A stretch of 64,000 nucleotides of DNA from Oscillospiraceae bacterium. GTDB taxonomy: Bacteria > Bacillota > Clostridia > Oscillospirales > Oscillospiraceae. Made by a program: the position numbers and the translations under genes. The stretch covers positions 62,001 through 126,000 of the forward strand of contig JAFPWN010000047.1 in assembly GCA_017412765.1 (NCBI GenBank), in the 5' to 3' direction. Numbering within the stretch: position 1 is the first letter of the stretch; each line of letters opens with the position of its first letter. The notes below the pieces were generated by a model. The model worked only from the letters and a program-made list of their open reading frames with translations, searched no databases and had not been told where the DNA came from. Positions 253 to 18,531 of the stretch are shown here, piece after piece.

Positions 253-1026
253 ATGGAACTCGTCTATATAATTGCTACTCTCATAGCGGGTCTGCTTGTG
301 GGAGGACTGTTGAATGAAATGATATACCGCCTGCCTTCGGGGGAGATACCGTTCCCGAGGCGGTGCCGGGAGTGCGGCAAAGCGTATTCACTGAGCGATT
401 ATCTGAGCGTTGTCGCGGGGATAAGCGGCAGGAACCGCTGTGATAAATGCGGCGCCCTGAGAAAGCGCAGAGAGGCGATTATCGAGTTGGCGAACGCCTT
501 TCTGTGGCTGCTGAGCTTTCTGACGTTCAGAAATTCGACAATAGGACATCTGTTTATATCCTTTGCGGCAATCTCGACTTACATCTGTATCGGATTTATA
601 GAATATGACGGAAAGAAGCTGCCCGGGTGGATTTACCTGTTCCTGCTCGCGCTCGGAATTCTCGATATATTCTGCAACGGAGAGCTTGAAATAAAAGAGA
701 GAATAATCGGAGCGCTGCTCGGCGGAGGCTTTTTCGCGCTGAGCTACGCTGTGTGCTATATCCTTCTGAAAAAAGAGGGACTTGGCTGGAGCGACGTTAA
801 GCTCATGGCGGTCAGCGGATTCCTTATGGGCTGGCAGGCGAGCTGTATGACAATCATCTTCGGCACGCTTGTCGCGGCGGTTATTCTTGCCGTTGTGTCG
901 ATGAGAAAAGGAAACAGAAATAAGGAATACCCTTTCTCCGCGTTCATTTCGATCGGCGCGATAGTGTCGATGATGTACGGAGAAGCGATGCTGAGAGCGT
1001 ATATTCGGTTATTCTCAATTTTTTGA
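253..1026 (+). CDS. Prepilin-peptidase (A24) homologue with altered catalytic motifs
   Basis: This 257-residue polytopic membrane protein has the layout of type IV prepilin peptidases, which cut the leader of prepilins and N-methylate the new end. It has the N-terminal GGLLNEMIYRLP segment, two zinc-type CxxC pairs (Cys38/41 and Cys63/66) and hydrophobic helices after them. The first active-site segment reads IEYDGKKLP: the position of the first catalytic Asp, seven residues before Pro124, is Glu117. The second motif, normally GxGD, reads GWSD (Asp181 kept, Gly to Ser). An intact paralogue at 17669 carries ADLEAYLVP and GGGD. The enzyme may therefore be inactive, of altered specificity, or only a methylase or scaffold. 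It starts with ATG behind GAAGAGG and is followed 20 bp later by pilC. Confidence 0.85.
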   Translation: MELVYIIATLIAGLLVGGLLNEMIYRLPSGEIPFPRRCRECGKAYSLSDYLSVVAGISGRNRCDKCGALRKRREAIIELANAFLWLLSFLTFRNSTIGHLFISFAAISTYICIGFIEYDGKKLPGWIYLFLLALGILDIFCNGELEIKERIIGALLGGGFFALSYAVCYILLKKEGLGWSDVKLMAVSGFLMGWQASCMTIIFGTLVAAVILAVVSMRKGNRNKEYPFSAFISIGAIVSMMYGEAMLRAYIRLFSIF

Positions 1027-1046: not shown

Positions 1047-2258
1047 TTGAAAAAATACAGTTACGTTGCGGTAAATCTGAACAGAAAACAGTTTACCGGA
1101 AGCTTCCTTGCGGAGAGCGAGGACGATCTGCGCCGCAAGCTCTCACAGCAGGGCTTGTATCTTGTAAGCGCGAAGCCAGTGTCGAATAAATCGCCGCAGG
1201 CGTCGTTCTTCTCATTGAGCAGCAAGGTCTCTCTATCTGAGCTTACGACCTTCTGCCGGCAGTTTGCTATAATGATAAACGTCGGCATATCCGTAGTGGA
1301 CAGCCTTAATATGCTTCAGCAGCAGAAGTTTTCAGGGCTGATGAAAAAGGTCCTCTACCTCGTTGCGGAGGACGTGCAGTCCGGACTTATGCTCTCTGAG
1401 GCGATGGAAAAGCACAAAAAAATATTTCCCGAGTTTTTCAGAAGCATGGTGTTTGTAGGCGAGCAGAGCGGCTCGCTGGACACTGTACTGACGAACGTCG
1501 CGGATTACTATGAAAAGAGCGAACAGCTGAGAAAGAAGATCAAGAGCGCGATGAGCTATCCTATTCTGCTGCTTGCGCTTACGATAGCGCTTGTCGGACT
1601 TATGGTGCTCTACGTTATCCCGACCTTCAAGAGCGCGCTTTCGACGATGGATCTGGAGATGCCGGCGCTGACGATGGCAATCTTCAACATGAGCGACTTC
1701 GTTATCGAAAACTGGCAGAATATAGCGCTCTACGTGATAGTGGCGGTCGCGCTCTTTATCGGAATAGGAAAGACGAAGCCGGGAAAGTATCTCTACGATA
1801 CGTTTCTCGTCAAGGTACCGCCGTTTGCAAAGTTCACAAGCTACAACGTAGCGTCCAAATTTTCGAGGTCTTTCGGACTCCTCCTTTACAGCGGCATGGA
1901 TATAGTTCAGTCGCTGGAGCTTATAACTAATCTTCTGGGCAACAAAAACGTGGAAAAGAGATTCGCACTTGCCGTCATCGACATAAAAAAGGGCATGAAC
2001 ATGACGATGGCTTTTGAGGCGTACAAGCTGTTCCCACAGCTTCTTATGCAGATGATATCGGTCGGTGAGAGAACCGGCGCAATGGACGAGGTGCTTATGA
2101 ATTCGAGCCGACACTTCGACGAGCTGACCGAGAACGCGCTGAACGCGATAACGAGCCTTATCCAGCCTGTTCTGCTCGTATTCATGGGCGGAGCGATCGG
2201 AGTAATGTTCCTTGCCGTTTATTCACCGATCATTACGATTATGGAAGGTATTCTGTAA
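1047..2258 (+). CDS. pilC: Type IV pilus inner-membrane platform protein PilC/GspF
   Basis: The 403-residue protein is the polytopic platform on which the PilB and PilT motors act. It has two T2SSF domains (about 67-190 and 265-395), each starting with an FCRQFA or FSRSFG type segment, and three membrane helices near 171-191, 225-245 and 372-395. The GEQSGSLD and GERTGAMD motifs, typical of the two repeats, are present. An N-terminal extension of about 60 residues resembles the usual PilC N-domain. The start is TTG at 1047 with GCGAGGTAG just upstream; it follows the preceding peptidase homologue by 20 bp, and pilB begins one base after its stop. Length and motifs are normal for the family. 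Confidence 0.95.
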   Translation: MKKYSYVAVNLNRKQFTGSFLAESEDDLRRKLSQQGLYLVSAKPVSNKSPQASFFSLSSKVSLSELTTFCRQFAIMINVGISVVDSLNMLQQQKFSGLMKKVLYLVAEDVQSGLMLSEAMEKHKKIFPEFFRSMVFVGEQSGSLDTVLTNVADYYEKSEQLRKKIKSAMSYPILLLALTIALVGLMVLYVIPTFKSALSTMDLEMPALTMAIFNMSDFVIENWQNIALYVIVAVALFIGIGKTKPGKYLYDTFLVKVPPFAKFTSYNVASKFSRSFGLLLYSGMDIVQSLELITNLLGNKNVEKRFALAVIDIKKGMNMTMAFEAYKLFPQLLMQMISVGERTGAMDEVLMNSSRHFDELTENALNAITSLIQPVLLVFMGGAIGVMFLAVYSPIITIMEGIL

Positions 2259-2259
2259 T

Positions 2260-3954
2260 ATGAATATAAATTATGAAGCACTGCAATTTTTCATTCTGAA
2301 AAAAGTCATCAAGAGAAAGGACGCCAAAGCCGTTCTCGACGAATGCGAAAGACTCAATATGTCAGCCGAGCAGTATCTTGTCGCCAAGGATATTGCCCTG
2401 CCTAATCAGGCTATGGCTGCCATGGGCGAGCTGTACAATCTTCCTAATATCGAGCTGGATATGCTCGAGATCAACAGATCGCTTGTGGACAAGTTCGGCC
2501 TTGCGTTCTTAAGGCGGCATAAGATTATACCCGTGAGCATAGACAGGGACGGAGTGCTTCTCATAGCTACCGGAAAGCCTATGGATCCCATCGCCATATC
2601 GAATATAGCGGTACTTTATGACGGAAAAATGGACTTTGTCTACGTTCCGCAGGTGCAGATAGACATCTACATTGACGCGATAGTGGCGGTGCAGTCCACT
2701 TCCGCGGCTCTGGACGTTATCAAAAAGGATCAGGATGACGAGATCCTCAACAAAATAAAGGCGGCAAACGAGGCAAACGACGCCGACGCTTCCGTTATCA
2801 ATACTCCCGCTGTCAGACTAGTCGACTCCTTCATTAAGGAAGCGATACCATACCGGGCGAGCGATATCCATATCGAGCCGTCGGAAACTACGGTTCGGGT
2901 GAGATACCGCATCGACGGCGATCTGCTGACGAGAGCGGAGTTCCCGATGGATTCTTATCCTGCGATAGTATCGCGCCTTAAGATACTTGCGGGACTGAAC
3001 GTCGCGGAGACAAGAACGCCGCAGGACGGACGTATCAGCATGGTGGTCAACGGAACGCCGTACGATTTCCGTGTTTCGACGCTTCCGATGATCTACGGCG
3101 AAAAGTTCGTTATCCGAATTCTTGATAAAAGCTCGTTCCGCCTTACAAGAGAAGATCTCGGCTTCTCTGAGGCGAACAACGAGATCATCGACAAGACCCT
3201 CGCGGCGCCTCACGGCATCATTCTGCTGTGCGGGCCAACCGGATCCGGTAAGTCAACTACGCTCTACACCTTCCTTAAAGAGCTGAATACCACAAAGGTC
3301 AATATCGTAACGGTAGAGGACCCTGTCGAATATACGCTTAACGGCATAAACCAGGTACAGGTCAATCCGAAGGCAGACCTGACGTTCGCAAACGCGATAA
3401 GGTCTATTCTTCGTCAGGACCCGGATATAGTCATGATCGGAGAGATCCGCGATGAGGAAACCGCGCAGATCGCTATCCGAGCGGCGATCACCGGACACCT
3501 TGTTCTCAGCACCATACATACTAACGACGCGCCGAGCTCGGTCTCGCGTCTTGTTGAAATGGGCGCTTCCAACTACCTTGTCGGAGACGCGCTTGTCGCG
3601 GTCATAGCTCAGCGACTTGTAAAGAGACTGTGCCCCGTGTGCAAGAAGAGGGGAAAAACGAATCCGAAGGAGATGGCGCTTCTCAATCTGAAGGAGCCTG
3701 TCAGTATATGCAGACCTTTCGGCTGCCAGTTCTGCAACGGAACCGGCTATAAGGGAAGAATGGCTGTCCACGAGATCATGTACGTTAACGAGGGACTCAA
3801 GGAAATGATAAGCGACCCCGACTTTACCGTTGAGGAGCTGCGCAGTTACAGTAAGGAGCACGGAATGGTCCCGCTTTGGGACGCGTGCAGAGAATCGGTT
3901 TTGAAGGGTCAGACAAGTCTTCCGGAGCTTATGAAGCTGACAATCGAGGGATAA
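2260..3954 (+). CDS. pilB: Type IV pilus assembly ATPase PilB/GspE
   Basis: This 564-residue hexameric extension motor powers pilus polymerisation. An N-terminal MshEN/T2SSE-N domain (about 1-150) precedes the ATPase core. Walker A is GPTGSGKSTTLY (from residue 325), the Asp box is TVEDPVEY, Walker B is DPDIVMIGEIRDEET and the His box is ITGHLVLSTIHTNDA. Four C-terminal cysteines (CPVC and CQFC groups) form the zinc knuckle typical of PilB. The frame is open further upstream inside pilC, but ATG 2260, one base after the pilC stop with GGAAGG before it, is the sensible start. All catalytic elements look intact. Confidence 0.96.
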   Translation: MNINYEALQFFILKKVIKRKDAKAVLDECERLNMSAEQYLVAKDIALPNQAMAAMGELYNLPNIELDMLEINRSLVDKFGLAFLRRHKIIPVSIDRDGVLLIATGKPMDPIAISNIAVLYDGKMDFVYVPQVQIDIYIDAIVAVQSTSAALDVIKKDQDDEILNKIKAANEANDADASVINTPAVRLVDSFIKEAIPYRASDIHIEPSETTVRVRYRIDGDLLTRAEFPMDSYPAIVSRLKILAGLNVAETRTPQDGRISMVVNGTPYDFRVSTLPMIYGEKFVIRILDKSSFRLTREDLGFSEANNEIIDKTLAAPHGIILLCGPTGSGKSTTLYTFLKELNTTKVNIVTVEDPVEYTLNGINQVQVNPKADLTFANAIRSILRQDPDIVMIGEIRDEETAQIAIRAAITGHLVLSTIHTNDAPSSVSRLVEMGASNYLVGDALVAVIAQRLVKRLCPVCKKRGKTNPKEMALLNLKEPVSICRPFGCQFCNGTGYKGRMAVHEIMYVNEGLKEMISDPDFTVEELRSYSKEHGMVPLWDACRESVLKGQTSLPELMKLTIEG

Positions 3955-3971: not shown

Positions 3972-6947
3972 TTGAAAAAGGTACACCGTCTAATCGCCGT
4001 GCTGCTTATCGCCGCGCTTTTGAGCTTGAATCTTACCGCTTTTGCGGCAGATGAAGCGGCGTCGAACGACGTAGTGTTCGTTGTGGACTGCAGCGGCTCC
4101 ATGAGAAAAGAGGACGCTCAGTATGCCTCAAGGGATATTTATCTGCAATTTCTGGAGAAATGCGACAGGGATAATACGAGCGTCGGCTTAGTCTGCTTTA
4201 CAAACCTGCTCGAATCAAGCTCCGATAAGCTCTATGCTCTCGGAGAAGAGGAAGGCCTTGCATCGGCAAAAGAGGAAGGCAAAAAGATTATATATCCATC
4301 AAGAGATACGGATATTGCTCTCGGACTTCGTGAGGCGATGCGCCTTCTGGACGAGGGAAAGGGCGAGAGAAAACTCATCGTCTTTATCGGCGACGGTGTG
4401 ACCGATCTTCCGAACGGCCCGAGAACGGTTGCCGAATCCGAAAGGGAGCTTGAAGAGCTACTGAAAAGAGCGCAGGACGAAAACACTGTCATATACTCTG
4501 TCGGCATGAACGGCGACGGCAACGCGAACACCTCGACGATCGAGATGCTTGCAAGTGAAACGGGTGGAATGAACTATACCGTTCACAGCGCCGGTGAAGC
4601 TGAGAATGTCGTATCTGACATCGTTCGGCTTATAAACGATGCTGAACCGATTGTTATTGATCATAATGAGGATTCCGACTCTCGCAGAGAGAAGAAGAGC
4701 TATTCATTTGACGAGCTATACGGCAGTATTCTCCAGAAGTTTGCCGAGATAGAGCCGATCGGAAGCGTTCAGACGATAGAAAACAGCTTCGCTGATGCGA
4801 TGATACAGATTCCCGAGATAACGAACACTGTTCCGGAAGAAGCTGATATGGAGAGTGCCTCAGAATCAAGCAGTGGAAACATATTTGATTTATTTCTAAG
4901 CTTCTTTCACGGTACCACAAAAAACGAGAACGAAGGCGATGTGTCCGGCCTTGAGGATATGATGGGCGGCGACGTTCCTGCTGACGAGCTTCCTGAGGGC
5001 ACGGAAGGCGCGGCTCCGGGCGTGGTACCGGGAGCTGTGCCGAGCGCGGGAAAAGTGAGCGACTACTATCTTGTCGTCAGAACGAACGGCGCGCTGAGCG
5101 GACTCAGAATATTCACAAATGAAGAGGATAAGAGGTCTGACTTCATCACCCCGGAAAACGGACTCAGCATCTACCGCCTCGGAGATTTGGGAGAAAACTG
5201 GTCAAACGAGAAGGTATATCTTGAATTTACCGGTGCCGAGGGCAGCCTCATCGAGCTTTATCTTCTGAACGCAGACTTTGTTGACGTTGTGATGGAGATA
5301 GACGCGGAGTGCGTTAAGCCGTCGCAGGCGCAGAACGTGCGGGCTTATGCCACGCTGCTCGGAGAATACAGCACAGCGCTGACGGAGCTTCTCGACGCGT
5401 CCGTAACGCTCCGTGTAATAGAGAGCGAGGAAACTGTTCCGCTCAGCGGGGAGTACGGCGAGAGCGGCTTTACGACGAAGGCTGTGCTTAACGAGGACTG
5501 CCACGTCATGCTCAACGCGGAGCTTGACATAGACGACGGCATACTTAATCCGCATCGCGTTATTGACATGAGTTACAACGTATGCGAGAATCCGGTGGCG
5601 CTGAAAAACAATGATAAGCAGAATATGTTCTTTTTCTCAAGCCTTACGGGAGGGACGCTCCTCGGAAAGACGATAAAGCTTGAGGACGTAGTGACCTACG
5701 AACCGTCAAGACAGCTTTCGGTACGCATCGACCGGGCTAAGAACATAACCTGCGACTATGACGCGGAAAAAGGCACGATAGCGCTCGGCGGAGGAAACGC
5801 CTACGAGGTCAATACTTTCTTTGTCGAGATCTCCGACGGCTTTGCCACGGTAAAGCTGCGCTGCTCGAGCGTGACGATACCGGCTATGCTGGTCATTACG
5901 ATACTGCTTGTCGTTGTGCTGATCGCGGCGATCATATTTATGGCTGCGTATAATAAAAAGCACACGAAATTTATCGGGAAGCTCTTCCTGAAGTTCCGTC
6001 TGCCCGAGAAGATGAGCGACTATGCGGTTGCTGATTCCGAGCTGATTTTCCCGTACACTTCGAGCATTTCGCTGTGGGATCTGATCGTGCTGAACAACTC
6101 GATGCACATGGCTCTCTCACAGATCATTGATAATTCTGAGCTGGAGGCAGTGGCTAAGGGCGTAATGATCGAGTCGAGATCAAAGGGCGAGATCTGGCTG
6201 AAGATAAAGCAGTCAACTCAGAGCCTCAGGATCAACGAAGAGGACTTCGGCAAGAAGAAGGACAAGCTCGTAGTGCTCGGACCTGAGGACAGCGCGACGG
6301 TGGATTTCGGCGGCGAGGGCGGCGACGTAAGGATGATCGTCTACCGCAATCCGAACACGGTGAAGTCCGAAAAAGTCGTGTTTACTGAAAAGAAGATCGC
6401 CCCGAGTCTTGATGAAAAGACCGAAAACGCCCGGCAGAAGCTCAGTGCGATCAGCGAAGAAGCGGTTGATACCGTTAAAAACGAGAAGGAAGAGAAGATC
6501 GCGGTCAGCTTCAACGAATGCGTAAACTACTATGTGTTCGCAAGCGTTCTCGGTATGCTCAAGCAGGACAGAGAGGGCAAGCACATAAGACTTTACAGGG
6601 ACACCGTTGATTTCTCACCCGTTACGCTTATTGACAGCGGTATCATAGACAACGATATCTACTATCTCGTATTCACAAAGTTCTGCACTAATCTTGACAG
6701 ACAGAGGCGCGAGAGCCTCGACAGTCAGATGCGCGCGCTGCTTGACGCCTGCGCCGCCGACGACGAAAAAGCAAAAAAGACGCAGAAGCAGGCGCAGAGC
6801 ATGATAATGAACTATACCGCCCTTCTGAACATGGTGCAGGATTCCTCGATGGAGGAGCCGGATAGCGAAAAATACGGAAAGGTAATTGAGTTCTATTCGA
6901 GCGTAATAGACGTTTGCAAGCAGCTGCTTGGCAAGCTTGACATCTGA
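3972..6947 (+). CDS. Membrane-anchored VWA-domain protein of the pilus operon
   Basis: The protein has 991 residues if begun at TTG 3972, which follows GGGAGAGAAG and directly precedes a signal peptide (KKVHRLIAVLLIAALL, cut near AFAA). A von Willebrand A domain follows, with MIDAS motif DCSGS (Asp39), the distal Thr in RDTDIALG and Asp in FIGDGVTD, so metal-dependent ligand binding looks intact. A long beta-rich extracytoplasmic region leads to one membrane helix at about 636-660 (ITILLVVVLIAAIIFM). Some 330 cytoplasmic residues end the protein, so it could pass a signal from outside to the motor side. It lies between pilB and pilT, 14 bp before pilT. The cytoplasmic domain is not recognised. 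A Gly/Pro/Val/Ala-rich linker sits near 340-390. Confidence 0.85.
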   Translation: MKKVHRLIAVLLIAALLSLNLTAFAADEAASNDVVFVVDCSGSMRKEDAQYASRDIYLQFLEKCDRDNTSVGLVCFTNLLESSSDKLYALGEEEGLASAKEEGKKIIYPSRDTDIALGLREAMRLLDEGKGERKLIVFIGDGVTDLPNGPRTVAESERELEELLKRAQDENTVIYSVGMNGDGNANTSTIEMLASETGGMNYTVHSAGEAENVVSDIVRLINDAEPIVIDHNEDSDSRREKKSYSFDELYGSILQKFAEIEPIGSVQTIENSFADAMIQIPEITNTVPEEADMESASESSSGNIFDLFLSFFHGTTKNENEGDVSGLEDMMGGDVPADELPEGTEGAAPGVVPGAVPSAGKVSDYYLVVRTNGALSGLRIFTNEEDKRSDFITPENGLSIYRLGDLGENWSNEKVYLEFTGAEGSLIELYLLNADFVDVVMEIDAECVKPSQAQNVRAYATLLGEYSTALTELLDASVTLRVIESEETVPLSGEYGESGFTTKAVLNEDCHVMLNAELDIDDGILNPHRVIDMSYNVCENPVALKNNDKQNMFFFSSLTGGTLLGKTIKLEDVVTYEPSRQLSVRIDRAKNITCDYDAEKGTIALGGGNAYEVNTFFVEISDGFATVKLRCSSVTIPAMLVITILLVVVLIAAIIFMAAYNKKHTKFIGKLFLKFRLPEKMSDYAVADSELIFPYTSSISLWDLIVLNNSMHMALSQIIDNSELEAVAKGVMIESRSKGEIWLKIKQSTQSLRINEEDFGKKKDKLVVLGPEDSATVDFGGEGGDVRMIVYRNPNTVKSEKVVFTEKKIAPSLDEKTENARQKLSAISEEAVDTVKNEKEEKIAVSFNECVNYYVFASVLGMLKQDREGKHIRLYRDTVDFSPVTLIDSGIIDNDIYYLVFTKFCTNLDRQRRESLDSQMRALLDACAADDEKAKKTQKQAQSMIMNYTALLNMVQDSSMEEPDSEKYGKVIEFYSSVIDVCKQLLGKLDI

Positions 6948-6961
6948 AAAGGAGAAAAGCA

Positions 6962-8011
6962 GTGGATATACTGAATAAACTTATCGGAGCAGCTTCGGAG
7001 GCGAAGGCTTCGGATATGCACATCAATTCGGGCAGCACGCCGATAGTGCGGCTTGACGGCGCGCTCGTCGAGCTCGGCGGAAGACCGTGGGATGAGGAAA
7101 CTGTCAGAGCTGCGGCAAACTCGCTTATGAACGAGGAGCAGCGCGAGTGGTTCGATAAAACCGGCGAGGTCGACCTCGCGGTCACTAACGGCAACGAAGC
7201 TCGAATCAGATGCAATATCTACCGGCAGATGGGAAGAACGGCGATAGCGATCCGACTTCTTCCGGTCAGCATCCCGACGCCGGAGCAGATAAACCTGCCC
7301 GAAACGATCGTTAACCTCACGAAAAAGAAAAAGGGTATCGTGCTTGTCACCGGCCCGACGGGAAGCGGAAAGAGTACGACTCTTGCGGCGCTTATCCACC
7401 ACATCAACAGAACTCAGAATAAGCACATAATAACGCTTGAGGACCCCGTTGAGTATATCCACACAAATATAAACTCCGTTATCCACCACAGACAGGTGGG
7501 CACGGATACTCAGAGCTTCGCAAGCGGAATGAGGGCGGCTCTGCGCCAGGACCCGGATATTATACTCGTCGGAGAGATGCGCGACCTCGAAACTATTTCT
7601 ACCGCTATCAGCGCCGCTGAAACGGGACACCTCGTGTTCGGAACGCTTCATACTACGAGCGCGGCGGGCGCGGTGGACAGAATCATCGACTCATACCCGG
7701 CAGATCAGCAGCAGCAGATCAGGGTCCAGGTCGCGGACGTACTCGAGGCGGTCGTAGCGCAGACTCTCGTGCCGAAAAAGAAGGGCGGAAGAGTCGGCGT
7801 TCACGAGATCATGATCGCAAATACCGCTATAAAGCAGCTCATAAGAGAGGCTAAGACTTATCAGATCAACTCGCAGATACAGCTTTCCGGCGCGTCGGGA
7901 ATGCAGCTCATGGACGAGGCGCTCCTGAGGCTCTATAAGGCGGACACGATCTCGAAGGAATACGCGCTCGCGGCGGCAAACGATAAGGTGTTGCTCGGCT
8001 CGAGAATGTAA
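6962..8011 (+). CDS. pilT: Type IV pilus retraction ATPase PilT
   Basis: A 349-residue retraction motor that depolymerises the pilus and gives twitching motility or DNA uptake. An N-terminal PAS-like domain is followed by Walker A GPTGSGKSTTLAAL (from residue 131), TLEDPVEY, Walker B DPDIILVGEMRD and the His box TGHLVFGTLHTTSA. The C-terminal retraction-specific motif is present as AIKQLIREAK, followed by GMQLMDEAL. There is no tetracysteine knuckle, which separates it from PilB. The start is GTG at 6962 behind AAAAGGAGAAAAGC, 14 bp after the VWA gene, so the two are probably translated from one message. Length and motifs are normal. Confidence 0.96.
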   Translation: MDILNKLIGAASEAKASDMHINSGSTPIVRLDGALVELGGRPWDEETVRAAANSLMNEEQREWFDKTGEVDLAVTNGNEARIRCNIYRQMGRTAIAIRLLPVSIPTPEQINLPETIVNLTKKKKGIVLVTGPTGSGKSTTLAALIHHINRTQNKHIITLEDPVEYIHTNINSVIHHRQVGTDTQSFASGMRAALRQDPDIILVGEMRDLETISTAISAAETGHLVFGTLHTTSAAGAVDRIIDSYPADQQQQIRVQVADVLEAVVAQTLVPKKKGGRVGVHEIMIANTAIKQLIREAKTYQINSQIQLSGASGMQLMDEALLRLYKADTISKEYALAAANDKVLLGSRM

Positions 8012-8053: not shown

Positions 8054-11000
8054 ATGGCTGTGAATAATATGATCGGAAAAAAGAATAAGGGCTTCACAGT
8101 CATAGAGCTTGTGGTGGTTATAGCCGTTATGGCTATAATGATGACGGCGGCAATTCCGTCTCTTGACAGAGTATTGAACGATTCGCAGCGCAACACGCTC
8201 GTAATGAACGTAGAAACGCTGAACGCCGTAATGGAGAATGCCGACGAAACGTCGTTTGAGGGCGCGTTCGGTGAGCTGTCAAAGCTCTACGCGGATTCAG
8301 CGGACGCCAGCACGTCGGGTGAAATAAAACGCTTGTCGGAGCTTATCGGAATAAACGGCAAGCTCAATTCCGCTGTTTTTTATGACAGCGAGGACGGAAA
8401 GTGGATATATCTCCATACGGAGATAAACGAGAGCGTAGCGGAATCGGTAAAGAAAGACTATGGGCAGGCGCGCTATTTTCTTCCGGTCAGATCTGCCGCG
8501 GAGATCCTCGAATACAGGGATACCGGCATAAGCATCGCGCTTTTGGCTGATATCGACGCGGCAAATGAGCGCGGACTTCTTGACGAAAACGGCAAGCTTG
8601 CTTTAGCCGGAGGACTCGCGCTCAACGGTCACGTGCTGAGCGGAGTGAACGCACTCTCGCTTACCGGCGAGGGCGCGGCGCTCGAGATTATCTCGGGCGC
8701 GCTTGTCGGAGCTGAGGGCGGCCGAACCGACGTTTATTTCGGCGTTGATCTGAAAGAGGCAGGCATAAAATCATCTTCAGATGAGGCTCAGAGCCTCGGA
8801 GAGGTTCGCGCCGAGAGAGTCGAAAAGCTCACTGTGACGGGACTAATCTCCGTCAAAAGCCTGAGGGCTGACAATTCGGGAGTGGTAATAGCGCCCGGCG
8901 CGAGAGTAGTAACGGAAAACGGCGCTTATGTGACAGGGGGCGAGGCTTTCGCAAAGACCGGCTGGATAACTTACAGAGGCTCGCAGGCCGCTTATCTGAG
9001 ATTTTCGGGCGGCGAGCTTGTCGCAAATAATGCCGAGGGCGAAGGACTTTTCTATTGCGGGCCGATAGGCTTCAGAGCGACAAACGGCAGTCTTGTTCCT
9101 GAGGCGATAAAGCTGCGCAAGGCAACCATGACACCGGACGAGGACGGCGAGATTTTTGAGCTTAATAACGGCAGATTCAGCGCTCTTGACGGAGCGCTCG
9201 GCTACAAGGTTTCGGCTGACGGCAGTATTGCCCTTGAGAGCGTGAGGCTCGACGAAAGCCTGACGCTTGACGGAAACGGCGATACCTATGCCGTCTATAC
9301 CCTCGACGGCAGAACGGTTATCGCGGATAAGCGCAAGGCAGTTATTTACAGCGCGAGCTCGATCGGCACTCTGACGCCGTATTGCGTCGCGGTAAATGAC
9401 GATCTGACAATTCCGTCTGTGAGCCTTGAAGCGTTCGCGGCGGGAAGCGGCGCGGCGCCGGAGGGATGCGCGCTATTATACACGCAGTACGACGGCGAAA
9501 CGCTCTATACAAAGAGCGCCGTGGGCGAGTACGAAAAAACAGGCTACTATTTCGTATGGGGAGAGAGCAGAATCAGTACGTCGCAGTACCACACCGTAAC
9601 GCTCAAGCTCTACGATAATATTTCAAACAAGGTGAGCGTAAAGCACGGAGGGGCGCTCCTGCTTCCGAAGCCCGTCCGTCAGGGCTACGTGTTCGGCGGC
9701 TGGTACGTTAAGGACAAGCCTGAGGAGAAGCTTGCGGCGGGCAGCGTTTACACAGGCGTCAATGACGCGCTGGAGCTTATTGCCGCGTGGACGGCGGTCA
9801 CAAATGAGATGACGCTCAGCTTTAACGGCAGGATCCGGGATAATTTTACTGTTTCCGTCGGCGGACTTGAATTTCTTATTACTGACGGAAGAAGCGTGTT
9901 CCTCAACAGGGTAGTGATCGAGGGCAGAGAGTATTATGCGCTATATGAGAACACGAGCACCGTGGACGTGGACGGAAAGGAGATCAACACCGCGGAATAC
10001 TGGTGCAGGAGAGAGGCATACGTCGTTGACCTCGGGGACGAGAAAACTTATTCTACGGAGATCTATGAGATCTACCGCAGGGATACCGGAGAGATGGTGC
10101 TGAGCGCGGTGCTTCCCGAGGTGCGCGCGACCGATACCGGGCTGACCGTAGTAATGCGCGGTCAGAGCGCGAGCGTAGTGCTTCCGCGTGCGGACGCCGA
10201 GGACGACCTCACCTTTGAAAGATGGGAGACAGACACGAGAGTCAGCTATGCCGCGGGCGACACGCTGATCATCGAATCCTCCGACAGCGCCCCGGTAGAG
10301 ATCACGCTGAATGCAAAGCTTCTTGAAAACGACCGTTCGAGCCTCATGCTCAGCGTGGCGCTCAGCGATGAGAAGAGCTATGAGGTAACTGACAGAAAGT
10401 ACGGTGTAGTCGGCGGAAAGCTGAGCCTTATAAGTGCCGATATAAAGGCAGGACTCAGCTATTATGTCCTATCCAAAAGCGGCAACGAGTGGATGGTTCA
10501 GCCGGCGATAGACGAAGCAGCTGAGATCAGCGGAAAAACTCTCAGAATAGAAGACGGTGAGACGGTCATCGAGGCGATGGTCACGCTGAGCGATGACAAG
10601 ACGCAGCTCGGAGTTTCGTTTGATAAGCTTCTGTTCGGCGGCAAAGAGATAGCCGTAAGCGACGGCAGAATGTCCGGCGGTGAGATAACCGGCAGCCTCA
10701 GCACTACGTCCGGAGCGGTTACGTTTGGTTATGACCTGACGAGCCGGATGAACAGCGCTATCGCCTATAAGCTTAAGAGTGTAGTCAGAAACGGCGTTGA
10801 GCAGACGGTAACCGACGATTCAATCGTGATCGAGAGCACCGATAAGGGAAAGATCTATACGATAGACAACCCCGAAAGACCCGGCGCCTCTACACTGAGG
10901 CTCACGGCAGTCATGCTTCCGGTGGATATTAACAGATTCTGGCTGAACGTAACGCCGCAGAACAAGGCGTCTCTCGACTTCCATTCAGAGGATGAGGAGC

Positions 11001-12400
11001 TCGGCGATTACAGAGTCACGTTCGGTGTATTGGATAATGATACCGGCGACGACTATACGCTCAGACCGGAATACGTCACAAAGAACGGAACTATGAGCCT
11101 TGTCAATAACGGCATCGTGACCATAAACGGCAGGGATTACGATATTAACGCCCTGATCGGAGCGCAGGCGGTAAGCGGTGGCGAGACCGGAGAAGGCGGT
11201 GAAGGCGGAGAAGGCGGCGAAACGGGTGAGACCGGCGAGACCGGAAACGAGGGCGGCATACTGCCCGGAACGCACGTTCACACCTTCGGTTTCTTTACGA
11301 CAGAGATAAACGGGGTTGAGGTAACGGAGTACGGCTGCGTTGAGTGCAAGGAGGCATCCGTCAACAGATCAATCGTACTTTACAAAGATGAAAGGCTGAC
11401 AAGTCCGTTCTACGTACCCGAAGGCGCGGTTTACACTCTTGACCTTAACGGTCACAACCTCATCACAAGCGGCGACGCGATATATAACAAGGGTACGCTG
11501 ACGCTGAAAAGCGACGGCTTCAGCTTCCCGGTACTTGAAACAGATGAAAACAAAAATCTTCTTTTCACTGAAGGTGAAATGAAGGGTTACGTTATCGTAA
11601 ATAACGGAGGGGCGGAGAAAGAAGCCTCAAATTCCAACGGAGTTATAAACTGGGGAACGCTCTATATGGAGGCGGTCGGAGTTGCGGTTTCGGACACCTA
11701 CGGAAACGCGGTAGTCAACGCAGATGGCGGAACGCTTGTAGTCGAAAACGCGGTGATTCTCAATACGGGACTCGGAAACGGCGTTTTCGCAGCCGGCGGA
11801 GACGTCGCGCTGAACGACGGCACCGTGATCTGGTCAACGACCTACGGCTTTGCGGTCTTTGTGTACGGCGATTCAAAGGTCGCGCTGAACGGCGGCTCAT
11901 ACTATTCGACGGTCGGATTCCCGCTGTGCCTTTGCGGAGGACAGACGAGGATCGGAAAATACTGCGTTGTGGACAGAGAAGATGACGAAAGCTACGCTGA
12001 CTACATAGAGATGGACGGTATGTCCGGCGAGATATACTGGCTCGCGGGCGGACTTGATCTCACGCAGCTGAGCGAGAAAAAATTCACCTATGCCATGCTG
12101 CCAGAGGGCATAACCGGTTATTATCCGGGCGGCGACGAGGTAAAAAGCTGGCTCTTCCCGGAGGACTTCGAGATCTACGTATCAAGAAGCGGCTCCGGCG
12201 AGATGGAGTACAGAAGCTGGTCAACGCAGATCTTTAACGCGGGTGAGTGGAATTCCGACGATCCGGAATTCGTGTTCCACGCCGCGGCTTCCTCGGACTA
12301 TGAATCGGCGGTGAGAATACTCAAGACACAGAGCACGGAGGGCAGCGAGGAGACGGATCTGCTCGTGCCACAGGTAGAAAGCTACGGCTTTTTTGACTGA
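8054..12400 (+). CDS. Giant type IV prepilin with multidomain C-terminal passenger
   Basis: The N-terminus is a class III-type prepilin: MAVNNMIGKKNKG, then FTVIELVVVIAVMAIMM. Cleavage is expected after Gly13, and Glu at mature position 5 is present. The usual pilin is 120-200 residues; this one has 1448. The passenger contains long beta-rich stretches, an InlB/Listeria-Bacteroides-type repeat at about 515-580 (RQGYVFGGWY ... LIAAWTA), a related segment near 715-760, a Gly/Glu/Thr linker near 1042-1068, and a C-terminal part with LDLNGHN, NKGTLTL and NADGGTL segments suggesting a right-handed beta-helix. It resembles the known class of modular pilins and is probably a surface adhesin at the pilus tip or along the fibre. 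It starts with ATG after GGGAGTGGAG; a second in-frame ATG lies at residue 6. No frameshift is seen. Confidence 0.9.
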   Translation: MAVNNMIGKKNKGFTVIELVVVIAVMAIMMTAAIPSLDRVLNDSQRNTLVMNVETLNAVMENADETSFEGAFGELSKLYADSADASTSGEIKRLSELIGINGKLNSAVFYDSEDGKWIYLHTEINESVAESVKKDYGQARYFLPVRSAAEILEYRDTGISIALLADIDAANERGLLDENGKLALAGGLALNGHVLSGVNALSLTGEGAALEIISGALVGAEGGRTDVYFGVDLKEAGIKSSSDEAQSLGEVRAERVEKLTVTGLISVKSLRADNSGVVIAPGARVVTENGAYVTGGEAFAKTGWITYRGSQAAYLRFSGGELVANNAEGEGLFYCGPIGFRATNGSLVPEAIKLRKATMTPDEDGEIFELNNGRFSALDGALGYKVSADGSIALESVRLDESLTLDGNGDTYAVYTLDGRTVIADKRKAVIYSASSIGTLTPYCVAVNDDLTIPSVSLEAFAAGSGAAPEGCALLYTQYDGETLYTKSAVGEYEKTGYYFVWGESRISTSQYHTVTLKLYDNISNKVSVKHGGALLLPKPVRQGYVFGGWYVKDKPEEKLAAGSVYTGVNDALELIAAWTAVTNEMTLSFNGRIRDNFTVSVGGLEFLITDGRSVFLNRVVIEGREYYALYENTSTVDVDGKEINTAEYWCRREAYVVDLGDEKTYSTEIYEIYRRDTGEMVLSAVLPEVRATDTGLTVVMRGQSASVVLPRADAEDDLTFERWETDTRVSYAAGDTLIIESSDSAPVEITLNAKLLENDRSSLMLSVALSDEKSYEVTDRKYGVVGGKLSLISADIKAGLSYYVLSKSGNEWMVQPAIDEAAEISGKTLRIEDGETVIEAMVTLSDDKTQLGVSFDKLLFGGKEIAVSDGRMSGGEITGSLSTTSGAVTFGYDLTSRMNSAIAYKLKSVVRNGVEQTVTDDSIVIESTDKGKIYTIDNPERPGASTLRLTAVMLPVDINRFWLNVTPQNKASLDFHSEDEELGDYRVTFGVLDNDTGDDYTLRPEYVTKNGTMSLVNNGIVTINGRDYDINALIGAQAVSGGETGEGGEGGEGGETGETGETGNEGGILPGTHVHTFGFFTTEINGVEVTEYGCVECKEASVNRSIVLYKDERLTSPFYVPEGAVYTLDLNGHNLITSGDAIYNKGTLTLKSDGFSFPVLETDENKNLLFTEGEMKGYVIVNNGGAEKEASNSNGVINWGTLYMEAVGVAVSDTYGNAVVNADGGTLVVENAVILNTGLGNGVFAAGGDVALNDGTVIWSTTYGFAVFVYGDSKVALNGGSYYSTVGFPLCLCGGQTRIGKYCVVDREDDESYADYIEMDGMSGEIYWLAGGLDLTQLSEKKFTYAMLPEGITGYYPGGDEVKSWLFPEDFEIYVSRSGSGEMEYRSWSTQIFNAGEWNSDDPEFVFHAAASSDYESAVRILKTQSTEGSEETDLLVPQVESYGFFD

Positions 12401-12424: not shown

Positions 12425-15400
12425 ATGGGTTTATTCGACTTTTTGAAAGGGCTTGGCGGCGGAAAATCTGCGGAAGACAAGCGCATGGAAAAGCTGCGCC
12501 AGAAGATGCCCGGTGAAAAGCAGGAGGAGAAGCAGGAGGATGCGGAACCCGCGAAAAAACCGCTGATGCTCTTTGCGATAGAAGATGATGAGCCCGCCGA
12601 AGAAGCCGCCCCCGTTATCGAGAAGAAACCCGCGGAGGAGAAAACGGAGCCGGACGGCTTTAACGCGGAAAGCTACGCGATGCCGAAGCTCGACCTTAGC
12701 AAATTCAGCGCTTTCAGGGATGACGATGAGGGCGCGCCTGTGCAGAATGAGGTCGAGGAGGAGGCGAACTCTTTGCCCGAGCCGGAAAAAGGACCCGAGC
12801 CGGAGGCTGAGAAGGAGATAGACGTTAAATTCTTTGACTTCGGCGTTCCGGAACCGGAAAAGCCGGCGGTGGAAGAGAAAAAGGTCAGACAGGAGCCTCA
12901 GAAGGAGCCTCAGAAGGAGGAAAAATCAAAACTATTCGGCGGCTTCGGCTTCCTCTTTAAGAAGGCTCAGCAGAAGACTGAGGAGCCGGAGAAGCAGGAG
13001 ATAAAAGAAGTCAAGTCGGCGGGAACAGATGAGAAATCCGACGAGCCCGCCGTCGATACGCGCACTGATATGGAGCGCCTTGCCGATCAGATCCAGGAGA
13101 GGTATCCGATGGGCATCAAGAGCCTATATTCTCTCCAGAGCGATATGCAGTTCGGAGTCGAGATCAGAAGTATAACGCGCAACCAGGAGAAGAGAGAGGA
13201 GCTCAAGAGGCTTCTCAGCGAGAGAAAGCTTTTGCAGACGGCTGAGAGCGAGCAGGGCGAGAGCGACGGCGTTACCGAGGTAACTGCGGAGCTTTTCGAG
13301 CAGTTTATGAACAGACTCGTCAGCGATAACCAGGGAATGCTCTTTTCGTTTACACAGGTCGTCGACAGCGCGTTCTTCCGAAATACGCTTCCGCTTTACG
13401 AGAATTTCTGCCGCGAGAACTACGACATGGCGCTCGAGGACTATCTCATAGTCCGCAGGAAGCTCGCCGCGGATAGAGCGAAGCTTGAGGAGCTCGGTCA
13501 GCTTAAGGAATTTGCCGTGAAAGGCGCGGAGGGCTCGCTTCTTGAGGATTACGCGCGCAGGAATTCCATCCCGTTTGAGTTCGAGCCGACGGCTGAGGGG
13601 CATATCCGCAGACTGCAAAGAATAGTGCGCGTTACCGAAACCGAGAAGGGCAACAACTGCTATGCCGCGCTGAAATTGCGGATTTTCGAGACTGTCACGC
13701 TCCTGCGCGAGCCGGAGGGGAGGGTCGCCGTATATAATTGCGACAACGAGCTCTGCGGATATATCGATCCCGAGGATCAGCAGTGGGTCACAACGGCGAT
13801 GGAGCAGGCGAAGATAACGCTCTCAGAGCCTGTTGTGGTCGAGCACTCCTTCGTTTCCGATGCGGGCAAGTTCCGCAGAAAGACGATAGTTTCACTCTAT
13901 TTCAAAGTTGAGTTTGACGAGCGGAAGTTTGTCCTCTACGGGCTTACGCCGTTCGACTCGCCCCGCTACTTCGCTCCCGCGCCGAAAGAGCCGCAGCGCA
14001 GTCCTGAGGGGTACTATATAATGAATCTCGATAACTCTCCGGAGGTGATCGAGGTAAACGACAAGCGCATCGAGGGCCTTTCCCTGCGCACCTGCGACGA
14101 TCTGAGCGACTGGGAGTGGACCGTTACGCCGGAGAAGACCGTACAGCTCAAGGGTTACAGCGGCGAGGAAACAAAGCTGACGCTTCCGTCATCCATCGAC
14201 TCTTACCCCGTAACGGAGATAGGCAAGGACGCGTTCTCCGGCAACGGAAAGATCGTAAGCGTAAGAATACCGGGCAGCATAAAGCTTTTGCGCGAGAACG
14301 CGTTCCGCGGCTGCGCCGAGCTTGTGAGCGTTTCGATCGGAGAGGGCTGCGAGCAGCTTGACAGAAACGTTTTTTCCGACTGCCCGAAGCTCACTAAGTG
14401 CGTAAGCCCGAAGAGCCTTGTCGAGATAACGGACAATACGCCGTTTTCTAATACTCCGTGGCGCGATGAAACGAGTGAGGAATTCCTGCTCCTCGGCAGC
14501 ATCCTGCTCTCCTGGCAGGGCAGAGGCTACCGTATGCGTATCCCGGGCGGAGTCACCGTCTACGCGAGGGGCGCGGCGTTCGGAAATCCGAATCTGCGCG
14601 AGGTCGTTTTCCCGGACGGCATGGTGAAGATCAGCGAGCAGGCGTTCTACCCGGGCAATAAGCAGCTCAAGAAGATAACGGTTCCGCTGAGCGTGCGCAG
14701 GATAGGTGAAAATGCCTTCAGAGGCACGAAATGGCTGACAGATCACACGGACGAGCTCCTTGTCATTAACGATCTGCTGCTTCGTTATCGCGGCGAGAGC
14801 AATACCGTCCATCTTGACGAGTCGATCCACGTTATCTGCGACGGCGCGTTCAAGGGCTGCGGGGTTGAAAGATTGTGGCTTGAGGACACTCTTACCGACG
14901 TCTGCGACGGCGCGTTCTACAAGTGCGAGGCGCTGAGAACGGTATCGGTTGGTAATGGACTCAGGTATATCGGCGCGTCGGCGTTTGCGCTCTGCAAGAG
15001 CCTGACGGGCTTCTATCTGCCGGAAAAGATCGAGTATATCGGTGAAAAGGCATTCTGGGGCTGCGCGATGCTCGAAGAGGTGCAATATCCGAAAAGGCTT
15101 ATCGCGCATGGCAAGGACGCGTTCATTGGCACGCCGCATATCACAAAAAGCGGCGAATTTGCTATCGCGGCTGGCAGACTTCTTAAGTACACCGGCAACG
15201 CCTCGTCCGTTTCGGTGCCCGAGGGTGTAACTGAGATAGCTCCGAGAGTGTTTGCCGGCATCAGAAATCTGGTTGAGATCACACTGCCTGACAGCCTTCT
15301 GAAGATCGGCAGGGAGGCGTTTGCCGACTGCGTATGCCTTTACGAGGTCAAGGGCGGCTCAAAGGTTGCGGAGATCGAGAACGGCGCGTTCAAAAACTGC

Positions 15401-16114
15401 CGTTCGCTTCTGAAGATCGCGCTGCCCGCGGAGCTTAAAGTAATCGGCTCGGAAGCGTTTCTCGATACCGACGTCAGGAGCGTCACGCTGCCGAAGGACC
15501 TGAGATACGTCGGCGCCGGAGCGTTCGGCGGAAAGAGCGAGCTGACGGTTTACGATCAGCTCGGCGTAGGCGATTTCGGAACAGGAAAGCTTTCGCTTGC
15601 TGCCGTTCTCCTCAAGACGAAAAACGGCGTTCCGTACTATGACGCCGATACGACAGAGTTTGCGCCCATTACGATAACCGTCAGAGCGGCGCTGAGCGGC
15701 TCGGTGAAGTACAGCTTCTACTTCGACGGAAGAAACGAGAGCCGCGCATACAGAGAGCTTATCCTGAACTGCTGGGGCAGAAAGAGCGAGATGAGCTGGG
15801 CGGAGTTTGACCGGACGTTCATGAAAATAAGAAACCCCGAAACGAGACTCAAAAACGCCTACGACAGACTTAAGAGCTCGCCCGCGCCCGAAGAGGGAGC
15901 GAAGGACTTTTACAAGAGCTATCTCGGCAGAGTTTTAGAGATACCGGACAGCGAACAGTGCGCGGCGAAATATATCTTCGGGCGCGACGATAAGAATATG
16001 CTGGCTCTTATTATGAAGCTCGGCACCGTTGCGGACGAGAAGAGAGAAAGACTTAGAGAGATGGCGAAGGAACTCGGCGCCGAGAAATGTGAAAAGCTGC
16101 TCACAAAAGTTTGA
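12425..16114 (+). CDS. BspA-type leucine-rich-repeat protein without signal peptide
   Basis: This is a 1229-residue protein. It starts MGLFDFLKGLGGGKS, a possible amphipathic membrane-touching helix, then has an acidic Pro/Glu/Lys-rich low-complexity region to about residue 215. A mixed globular part follows to about 580. Then come many LRR_5 (BspA-like) repeats to about 1040, recognisable by repeated G.DAF...L..V.IP spacing (for example IGKDAFSGNGKIVSVRIPG). The last 190 residues are helical. BspA repeats are normally found on secreted or surface proteins, but no signal peptide, lipobox or membrane helix is visible, so a cytoplasmic or membrane-associated location is inferred. The gene lies 24 bp after the giant prepilin with GGAGG before ATG. 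Its role in pilus function is unknown. Confidence 0.85.
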   Translation: MGLFDFLKGLGGGKSAEDKRMEKLRQKMPGEKQEEKQEDAEPAKKPLMLFAIEDDEPAEEAAPVIEKKPAEEKTEPDGFNAESYAMPKLDLSKFSAFRDDDEGAPVQNEVEEEANSLPEPEKGPEPEAEKEIDVKFFDFGVPEPEKPAVEEKKVRQEPQKEPQKEEKSKLFGGFGFLFKKAQQKTEEPEKQEIKEVKSAGTDEKSDEPAVDTRTDMERLADQIQERYPMGIKSLYSLQSDMQFGVEIRSITRNQEKREELKRLLSERKLLQTAESEQGESDGVTEVTAELFEQFMNRLVSDNQGMLFSFTQVVDSAFFRNTLPLYENFCRENYDMALEDYLIVRRKLAADRAKLEELGQLKEFAVKGAEGSLLEDYARRNSIPFEFEPTAEGHIRRLQRIVRVTETEKGNNCYAALKLRIFETVTLLREPEGRVAVYNCDNELCGYIDPEDQQWVTTAMEQAKITLSEPVVVEHSFVSDAGKFRRKTIVSLYFKVEFDERKFVLYGLTPFDSPRYFAPAPKEPQRSPEGYYIMNLDNSPEVIEVNDKRIEGLSLRTCDDLSDWEWTVTPEKTVQLKGYSGEETKLTLPSSIDSYPVTEIGKDAFSGNGKIVSVRIPGSIKLLRENAFRGCAELVSVSIGEGCEQLDRNVFSDCPKLTKCVSPKSLVEITDNTPFSNTPWRDETSEEFLLLGSILLSWQGRGYRMRIPGGVTVYARGAAFGNPNLREVVFPDGMVKISEQAFYPGNKQLKKITVPLSVRRIGENAFRGTKWLTDHTDELLVINDLLLRYRGESNTVHLDESIHVICDGAFKGCGVERLWLEDTLTDVCDGAFYKCEALRTVSVGNGLRYIGASAFALCKSLTGFYLPEKIEYIGEKAFWGCAMLEEVQYPKRLIAHGKDAFIGTPHITKSGEFAIAAGRLLKYTGNASSVSVPEGVTEIAPRVFAGIRNLVEITLPDSLLKIGREAFADCVCLYEVKGGSKVAEIENGAFKNCRSLLKIALPAELKVIGSEAFLDTDVRSVTLPKDLRYVGAGAFGGKSELTVYDQLGVGDFGTGKLSLAAVLLKTKNGVPYYDADTTEFAPITITVRAALSGSVKYSFYFDGRNESRAYRELILNCWGRKSEMSWAEFDRTFMKIRNPETRLKNAYDRLKSSPAPEEGAKDFYKSYLGRVLEIPDSEQCAAKYIFGRDDKNMLALIMKLGTVADEKRERLREMAKELGAEKCEKLLTKV

Positions 16115-16128
16115 TTGGGAGAATAAAG

Positions 16129-17658
16129 ATGAAGATGATCGTTCACAACAGACTGGAATTTAACTGTGAACTGAATGAATACCGCGAGATAAGCGCGGCG
16201 TTTGCGCGCGACGCGGTGGACTGGAGCTTCACGGTAGGCGAGAGAGTTTTTGACGATGAGAAGCGCAGCCTTTCTTTCAACACGTGGGAAGATGGCGACA
16301 TAATCTCGGACGGCAGCCTTGTTAAGCTCACCCTTATGTTCCCACGGGTCATTTTCAGCTATACCGCCTGGCCTGACGGACAGCCGGAGCCGGAGAGCGC
16401 GTCGCAGGTGTGGTGCGCCGGTCAGAACGTGACTGAGCTTACGCCTGTCATGCGCAATTCCGTGCGCGACAGAGCGTATATCGAGTACTGCAAGCGCTTC
16501 CTCACCGGCGACACCAGATCGGGCGAGGGCTATGCGCACAAGGCTATTATAATGGATAACGAGGAGCGCACGGCGGCAAGCTGGGGCGAAAACCGCTTCG
16601 GAGAGTGCGAGGTCTATTACTGGGACAGCCTGAAATCGCTCGGCTGCGGAGATTTTCACACCGTTGCGGCAAGAAGCGACGGCAGAACGGTCGCCACAGG
16701 CAGCAACGCGAACGGACAGTGCGACGTGGAGGCGTTCAGAAACGCTGATACCATCTCCTGCGGACGCTACCATACGGCGGCGCTCAAGAAGATCGGCGCG
16801 GTGCTCCTTGCGTCTACGGACGAGCGCTTTACTCAGTGCGCTACCTGGCGCGGCATAGTAGCTTTGCGCAGCGTCGGTGATACGATCATCGGGATCAAGC
16901 GCGACGGCAACGTGCTTATCGACGGCGATCAGATGTGTCCCTGCACGCGCGATGACATCAAGGCAATGTTCCCGGATATGAAGCTTACGTTCCCCGCGGG
17001 GTTCAAGTCGCTTGCGACGAAGATCAGCGCAGAGGATAAGCGCAAGGAGCGCGCTCTCGAGAACGCGGGGGTAAAAAAGCGCAGAAAAGCTCCCGCGAGC
17101 GCCGTGGAGCTTGAGGAAAACGGCCGTATATCTGACAAAAATAAAAAGCCGCGTCCCGTAAAGCTTTCGGAACCGGCATATACCTTCACTTTCAGCTACC
17201 GCGAGGAGCTTGAAAAGCTTGAGAGCGAATTCTGCGGCGAGGAGCTTGTCCTGCCGTATTTCTGCTACGACGCGGCGAAGTATCTCGACAAGAACGGCGT
17301 GCCGCCGGTGGGAGATAACTGCAAGCGCGTGGACGAGGAGACCGTCCGCAGGCAGATAAAGGAATTTTTCATGGTGTGCAGGCTATGCACGAATAAGAAC
17401 TTTCTTGCAGTGATCGCCGAAAATGCCGCGAAGAGCGCAAACGGCAAGCTCATAAAGAACAGAGCGCAGCGCATAACTACGTTCAGACTCACCCACGGCG
17501 AGGATTTTTACGAGCTTTGCGCGAGAAACGTGGACCCGGAAACGATAGATATCTCCGTAGCGCCGGTCGAGTGCACGCTGAAAAACTGCCGCGGGATCAC
17601 AAACCAGCCGGACAGCAGGGCAGTGCTCGAGGAAAACTGCTCAGTGAAGCTTGACTGA
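16129..17658 (+). CDS. RCC1-like repeat protein of the pilus operon
   Basis: ATG 16129 follows TTGGGAGA and gives 509 residues; the same frame is open slightly further upstream but would overlap the preceding stop. Residues of about 130-290 show RCC1/BLIP-II-like repeats: SWGENRFGECEV, LGCGDFHTVAARSDG, ATGSNANGQCDV, ISCGRYHTAALK. Such repeats usually fold into a beta-propeller that mediates protein contacts. The N-terminal part and the Cys-containing C-terminal half are not recognised. No signal peptide or membrane helix is seen. The gene follows the LRR gene by 14 bp and its stop lies 10 bp before the intact prepilin peptidase, so these are likely one transcript. A function in pilus assembly or regulation is guessed from position. 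Confidence 0.8.
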   Translation: MKMIVHNRLEFNCELNEYREISAAFARDAVDWSFTVGERVFDDEKRSLSFNTWEDGDIISDGSLVKLTLMFPRVIFSYTAWPDGQPEPESASQVWCAGQNVTELTPVMRNSVRDRAYIEYCKRFLTGDTRSGEGYAHKAIIMDNEERTAASWGENRFGECEVYYWDSLKSLGCGDFHTVAARSDGRTVATGSNANGQCDVEAFRNADTISCGRYHTAALKKIGAVLLASTDERFTQCATWRGIVALRSVGDTIIGIKRDGNVLIDGDQMCPCTRDDIKAMFPDMKLTFPAGFKSLATKISAEDKRKERALENAGVKKRRKAPASAVELEENGRISDKNKKPRPVKLSEPAYTFTFSYREELEKLESEFCGEELVLPYFCYDAAKYLDKNGVPPVGDNCKRVDEETVRRQIKEFFMVCRLCTNKNFLAVIAENAAKSANGKLIKNRAQRITTFRLTHGEDFYELCARNVDPETIDISVAPVECTLKNCRGITNQPDSRAVLEENCSVKLD

Positions 17659-17668
17659 GGAGACGGGC

Positions 17669-18463
17669 ATGGATTTCATAACAGTGTATTTTCTTGTCAT
17701 CTCCGCCCTCCTCGGAGCTTGCGCGGGCAGCTTTCTGAACTGCTTTGCGTGGAGAATAGTCCACGGCGAGTCGGTAATGAAGGGCAGATCGCATTGTGAT
17801 GAGTGCGGACACGTGCTCGGAGTGCGTGATCTCATTCCGATAGTAAGCTATCTCGCCTCCGGCGGGAAGTGCAGATACTGCGGCGCCAAGCTCTCAAAAA
17901 GGCACCTCGGGGCGGAGATAGTCTCAGCGCTCGTATTCCTCTCGATAGCGTGGAAATACGGTATCTCACTCGAAACCCTGGAGTTCTGGCTTCTCGGCTC
18001 TGCGCTTCTGGCGTGCTCTTTTGCGGATCTCGAGGCGTATCTCGTGCCAGACAGATTTATCGTCTTTGCGATAATCGTCAGAGCGGTGTTCATCGCCGTC
18101 TCTCCGGAGCCGCTTGAGGCTCTCAAAACCTCTCTGATAGGCGGCTTTTCAGTCGCCGCGGCAGTTCTGCTCGTAGTTATCGTGATGGAAAAGGTGCTCA
18201 AAAAAGACGCTATGGGCGGCGGTGATATTAAGCTCATATTCGTGATCGGACTTTACCTCGGATGGGAGAGAAATCTGCTATGCCTGATGATGTCGGCGCT
18301 TTTCGGCGTTGTCGCGGGTATGATATCGCTCAAGAAAAAGAACGATGAGGAGGCTGAGGCGTTCCCGTGGGGTCCGTCTATCGCCTGCGCCGCGTGGGTC
18401 ACGGCGCTGTTCGGCTCGGAGATCATAAGCTGGTATCTGCAATTTTTCACCACAGTGCGCTGA
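17669..18463 (+). CDS. pilD: Prepilin peptidase / N-methyltransferase (intact)
   Basis: A 264-residue polytopic membrane aspartic protease that removes prepilin leaders and methylates the new N-terminus. It shows GSFLNCFAWRI at the N-terminus, two CxxC pairs (Cys43/46 and Cys68/71), first catalytic Asp120 in ADLEAYLVP, and second catalytic Asp186 in GGGDIKL. All are as expected, unlike the paralogue at 253. The likely start is ATG 17669 behind GAGGAGA. It is the last gene of the pilus cluster and is followed by a hairpin terminator. It is the best candidate to process the giant prepilin at its KG/FTVIEL site. Confidence 0.94.
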   Translation: MDFITVYFLVISALLGACAGSFLNCFAWRIVHGESVMKGRSHCDECGHVLGVRDLIPIVSYLASGGKCRYCGAKLSKRHLGAEIVSALVFLSIAWKYGISLETLEFWLLGSALLACSFADLEAYLVPDRFIVFAIIVRAVFIAVSPEPLEALKTSLIGGFSVAAAVLLVVIVMEKVLKKDAMGGGDIKLIFVIGLYLGWERNLLCLMMSALFGVVAGMISLKKKNDEEAEAFPWGPSIACAAWVTALFGSEIISWYLQFFTTVR

Positions 18464-18480
18464 CTTAATCTAAAAATATA

Positions 18481-18531
18481 GAGACCGCTTTTACTCTCTC
18501 GGCATCCGTAGAGGAAAGCGGCCTCTTTTTT
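18481..18531. terminator. Terminator ending the pilus operon
   Basis: GAGACCGCTTT (18481) pairs with AAAGCGGCCTC (18515) with one mismatch and is followed by a run of T. It lies between the end of the intact prepilin peptidase and the convergent Nudix gene, whose stop codon sits at the end of the T tract. Confidence 0.75.

Follow-up and report, generated by a model that had tools for sequence, protein, structure and literature searches.

A BspA-type LRR protein and an RCC1-repeat protein, likely cytoplasmic, inside a diverged type IV pilus operon of an Oscillospiraceae bacterium

The window that we analysed, the whole stretch of 64,000 nucleotides, is held by a contig of 136.8 kb from a draft genome of 2.28 Mb (74 contigs, about 98% complete by estimate). 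A type IV pilus operon runs into it: its first genes, for prepilins and a PilM-like protein, lie before the window (L220, L009), and its gene content includes pilC, pilB, pilT, two pilD genes and several prepilins. The features inside the window are the following:

253..1026, forward strand: pilD1, first prepilin peptidase of the operon (PF06750 and PF01478)
1047..2258, forward strand: pilC, platform protein (PF00482, E=6e-57)
~2260..3954, forward strand: pilB, extension ATPase (PF00437, E=3e-130, with MshEN)
~3975..6947, forward strand: VWA protein, TTG start chosen by eye (PF00092, E=1e-14)
6962..8011, forward strand: pilT, retraction ATPase (PF00437; best relative in the order 57% identical)
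8054..12400, forward strand: giant prepilin of 1448 aa (PF07963, E=2.3e-6; List_Bact_rpt domain)
12425..16114, forward strand: BspA-type LRR protein of 1229 aa, ATG start (PF13306, E=1.5e-71)
16129..17658, forward strand: RCC1-repeat protein of 509 aa, ATG start (PF13540, E=1.1e-9)
17669..18463, forward strand: pilD2, prepilin peptidase of 264 aa, last gene of the operon (PF06750 and PF01478)
18510..18526, forward strand: terminator-like hairpin with a T-run, behind pilD2

The preliminary description had placed two large repeat genes between the giant prepilin and the prepilin peptidase, and our data on coordinates and domains agree with it. The gaps are short: 24 bp between the prepilin and the LRR gene, 14 bp between the LRR and RCC1 genes and 10 bp between the RCC1 gene and pilD2. 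Because long antisense frames led a length-based ORF caller astray, we used one that scores codon usage as learned from other genes of the operon, and it picks both the LRR gene (393) and the RCC1 gene (148). Since the reading frames, the gaps and the codon-usage calls agree, the earlier observation is confirmed. The starts of the LRR gene, the RCC1 gene and pilD2 are preceded by GGAGG, GGGAG and GAGGAG, respectively, which resemble ribosome-binding sites, and the RCC1 gene might start instead at a TTG at 16111. Promoter-like sites between 12000 and 18700 are no commoner than in shuffled sequence, and a terminator was found only after pilD2.

PilB, PilC, PilT, PilD and class III prepilins, by which a type IVa pilus is recognised, were all found with Pfam, and the PilB and PilT of the window are the sole such pair of the genome at E<=1e-10. 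In trees built with 33 and 37 other sequences from the order (34 and 38 sequences in all) PilB and PilT sit on the longest end branches, with 1.9 and 1.27 changes per column, respectively, and our searches found no close relative of the operon. The PilM-like gene (L009:2804-4159) stands in the position of PilM; it has no PilM_2 match in Pfam and matches a profile of four PilM sequences weakly (probability 4%, E=0.011). PilN (PF05137) is matched nowhere in the genome, also with the limit set at E 10; the family is only weakly detected in the relatives too. Two prepilins of about 1000 aa follow the PilM-like gene at the usual place of pilN and pilO. PilM, PilN and PilO are described as essential for assembly of the type IVa pilus in monoderms (PMC6916266). 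This pilus may be built in another way, or else its PilN and PilO have diverged beyond detection; judged from its sequences, the type IV pilus of this operon is strongly diverged.

A comparison with the type IVa pilus of monoderms such as Streptococcus sanguinis and Clostridium shows the same PilB, PilC, PilD, PilT and class III prepilins gathered in one operon, and very large pilins in both (PMC6916266). Here, in contrast, PilM is barely recognisable, PilN is undetected, and the operon adds a VWA membrane protein together with signal-less LRR and RCC1 proteins. The VWA protein, encoded between pilB and pilT, has a signal peptide, a VWA domain on the outside and one transmembrane segment; its orphan inside tail of about 340 aa has no convincing relative and within the fetched loci matches itself only.

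The LRR protein begins with a short MGLFDFLKGL segment, which is amphipathic with an only modest hydrophobic moment. An acidic low-complexity N-terminus (residues 1-205) is followed by an orphan domain (~205-570), BspA-type LRR_5 repeats (~580-1045) and a C-terminal domain (~1083-1229), for which a helical fold is predicted with low confidence. The anchors of the repeats are mostly 22-24 residues apart, as is proper for LRR_5 repeats of about 23 residues. A PDB search with the orphan domain gave no match, a PHROGs search returned only families of unknown function lying over the LRR repeats, and AlphaFold2 run without an alignment on residues 200-1229 reached a mean pLDDT of 37.

The RCC1 protein carries three clear repeats (at residues 174, 212 and 249, about 38 aa apart) and perhaps a fourth, occupying residues ~130-270 between N-terminal and C-terminal regions that are both orphan. 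Its score passes the PF13540 cut-off, so that its membership among the RCC1-repeat proteins is real, but partial: the same repeat pattern finds seven repeats in the RCC1 protein of a relative, and the seven repeats that close a propeller are not seen here, though the orphan ends could hide blades. BLIP-II is a secreted full propeller. Its repeat sequence is like that of the window protein and it is the closest solved structure (PDB 1jtd_B, E=4e-10), whereas the window protein has a partial set of repeats set between orphan regions. The AlphaFold2 model of the RCC1 protein, also made without an alignment, has a mean pLDDT of 34.

It had been claimed that neither protein has a signal peptide or a membrane helix, and this holds: hydropathy revealed no signal peptide, N-terminal hydrophobic segment or TM-like stretch in the LRR or the RCC1 protein, and neither matches the class III prepilin signal (PF07963). 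By hydropathy, the operon's pilins and its VWA protein do show hydrophobic or TM segments. The LRR protein, as far as hydropathy tells, thus lacks the export signal of a BspA-type surface protein. Among the relatives' proteins with a readable start, 14 of 22 LRR_5 proteins have an N-terminal hydrophobic segment and eight do not, and for RCC1 proteins the numbers are two with and five without, counts which depend on a rough hydropathy cut and on some uncertain starts. The two RCC1 proteins with a segment look misread or incompletely read, so that a segment is lacking in most true ones. BspA and RCC1 proteins without a signal are ordinary in this order and, given these relatives, the notion that the lack of a signal is strange in itself was dropped. 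Two of the relatives' RCC1-repeat proteins (L020 and L023, in G055 and G038) seem to have, by eye, TIR-like and TPR-like parts and possibly belong to a sensor or conflict system.

The cysteine content adds to the picture. At 3.7% the RCC1 protein has the highest content in the operon, which favours the cytoplasm. The content of the LRR protein (1.7%) does not discriminate between locations and does not exclude export, because the operon's exported proteins come up to 1.2-1.5% and a similar value is seen in an LRR pilin that this genome exports. A cytoplasmic location of both proteins is likely. The interpretation in the preliminary description, a cytoplasmic platform or a control complex for the motors, is partly supported: it keeps the likely location and the tight co-directional placement of the genes, but LRR_5 and RCC1 proteins that lack a signal abound in the order, so that the pair is less odd than it had seemed.

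The search for relatives of the pair gave little. The whole RCC1 protein, compared with 60 relatives, matches them only over its RCC1-repeat stretch, and the orphan domain of the LRR protein has no match in 245 genomes of the order. Queries with the orphan parts, run on 391 genomes from the class and on 400 from the family, found nothing convincing: the class-level matches are weak (best E=0.001), and three family-level ones look like chance, the proteins matched being, by eye, like a histidine kinase, like an aminopeptidase and like a repetitive surface protein. A scan of GTDB contigs with the RCC1 protein gave four loci, in none of which the orphan ends are well covered; viral contigs gave no match, plasmids gave RCC1-repeat matches only, and PADLOC found no defence family. 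These were single-sequence searches, from which very distant relatives could escape. One relative was found for the C-terminal domain of the LRR protein, in another LRR protein (27% identity over 141 aa, E=7e-5) from genome G008. Its gene (L140, contig C132) adjoins genes for a DUF2201 VWA-like protein and a MoxR-like AAA ATPase, the latter with a weak, below cut-off match to the bpMoxR model, and pilus genes are absent over the 6.1 kb of that contig. As to the question whether the genes occur apart from pili, no orthologue of either gene was found anywhere we searched, and one domain does recur in a non-pilus cluster. Both proteins are probably species-restricted.

PilT/PilB-type ATPases are common among the relatives: they occur in 25 of the 34 genomes of the genus, and the order has PilT at E<=1e-90 in 31 of 245 genomes. 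Of 41 other type IV pilus neighbourhoods none has an LRR or RCC1 gene (683 kb; phmmer at E 0.01, in agreement with blastp). Nine repeat queries were used with phmmer, one of which (rcc_L016) is a wrong-strand reading and uninformative. With the pair absent from all of these neighbourhoods, it does not belong to the conserved parts of the pili of this group, and the co-occurrence of the two families with pilus genes that had been proposed as a check was not borne out.

The literature that we searched, which took in few subscription journals, describes no pilus with this pair and no cytoplasmic LRR or RCC1 partner of a type IV pilus; the earlier claim of novelty stands for the pair and not for RCC1 repeats as such. 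PilX2, a minor pilin of the Saccharibacteria T4P-2 pilus, brings an RCC1 propeller into a type IV pilus (PMC12206443) and is the nearest precedent. Both proteins combine RCC1 repeats with membership in a type IV pilus gene set and the lack of a predicted PilD signal (PMC12206443), but PilX2 has at its N-terminus a hydrophobic helix like that of pilins, and its propeller has seven blades, while in the window protein the hydrophobic helix is lacking and the repeats number three or four. Modular pilins such as PilB of S. sanguinis tie binding domains to the pilus (PMC8179133), and a comparable protein is encoded elsewhere in our genome: a modular prepilin of 584 aa (L221:9724-11478; G000, contig C38) with a C-terminal BspA-type LRR domain, the N-terminal 180 residues of which are 51% identical to the small prepilin of the operon (L009:1003-1695). 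Therefore this genome does put an LRR domain on a pilin; the LRR and RCC1 proteins of the window, in contrast, have no pilin module. The MoxR-vWA systems with repeat or beta-propeller proteins (Pfam bpMoxR) are similar in that the operon has a VWA protein too and that the G008 LRR protein with the related C-terminal domain lies next to the VWA-like protein and the AAA protein with its weak bpMoxR match. Contrastingly, no MoxR ATPase is present among the operon genes, where the ATPases are PilB and PilT, and the VWA domain is outside the cell.

We infer a pilus role for the pair from operon membership in one species: the genes share the strand, are spaced by 24, 14 and 10 bp, have RBS-like sites of their own and are followed by a terminator only after pilD2. 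Unusual partners are plausible for this pilus because PilB and PilT lie on long branches, the PilM-like gene is unmatched by Pfam and PilN is undetected. It could be, with about an even chance in our judgement, that the two are cytoplasmic species-restricted accessory proteins of the diverged pilus and probably scaffolds of its base. Because LRR and RCC1 surfaces commonly bind other proteins, they may be binding scaffolds at the pilus base, on the inner side of the membrane, with which the MGLFDFLKGL terminus of the LRR protein could make contact. Their likeliest partner would be the inside tail of the VWA membrane protein, which the pair would couple to PilB or PilT, or else the pair would help to hold together a machine in which PilN is undetected. 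The pair may form a platform or a control complex for the motors, as was first suggested. Against it stand the 0 of 41 neighbourhoods elsewhere with the pair or either gene, the non-pilus setting in which the C-terminal domain of the LRR protein is known (G008), and structure models too poor for an interface test (pLDDT 34 and 37). A stronger form, in which PilN and PilO are gone from a separate pilus lineage, their task at the membrane has passed to the VWA protein and the cytoplasmic pair, and the pair holds PilB, PilT and PilC, seems to us very unlikely.

One would argue that the pair came to lie in the operon of one species as passengers and does nothing for the pilus, both being repeat proteins of a general kind in the cytoplasm that bind ligands or peptides and that may stem from a conflict or stress system. 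The absence of LRR and RCC1 genes from every other pilus locus (0/41), the frequency of signal-less LRR_5 and RCC1 proteins in the order and the place of the sole relative of the C-terminal domain next to DUF2201 VWA-like and MoxR-like AAA genes all speak for this. However, the pair lies inside the operon, before its last gene and not at its edge, with tight spacing and its own ribosome-binding sites, and it matches no defence family; we regard this reading as somewhat unlikely. LRR and RCC1 domains elsewhere decorate filaments or cell surfaces. That the pair does the same here, as adhesins which leave the cell by an unrecognised route, is in our view distinctly improbable: the LRR domain fused to a prepilin in the same genome (L221:9724-11478), the RCC1 propeller of PilX2, which has no predicted PilD signal either (PMC12206443), and the cysteine content of the LRR protein would allow it, but both proteins lack the hydrophobic N-terminal segment of PilX2 and of every pilin here, and the RCC1 protein is rich in cysteine and has three or four repeats, not a full propeller. 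A link to DNA uptake is the least credible idea and could hardly be expected to hold. On this view the orphan domain in the LRR protein would bind single-stranded DNA as a diverged form of HIRAN, which is the top Pfam match of this domain (E=0.033) and has its best match in the genome here (16.8 bits; E=0.009 when one genome is searched); however, scores of 14.4-16.8 bits fall short of the Pfam cut-off of 24.7, the usual acidic/Asn motif seems by eye to be missing, and structural support is absent. The pilus is unusual, and the LRR/RCC1 pair would more probably be accessory proteins of it than passengers.

If the pilus works with a barely recognisable PilM, an undetected PilN and cytoplasmic LRR/RCC1 partners, it would show that other parts can be used to rebuild the base of this common machine, and nature would have supplied a system in which to study the task of the PilMNO complex; if a new lineage is at hand, it would have a new kind of pilus base. 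If the genes are mere passengers, the find is ordinary: one bacterium with orphan repeat proteins.

Two further observations concern the operon as a whole. It contains two prepilin peptidase genes (253-1026 and 17669-18463), and just upstream of its first prepilin lies a gene for an S-layer homology (SLH) protein (L220:15126-17075).
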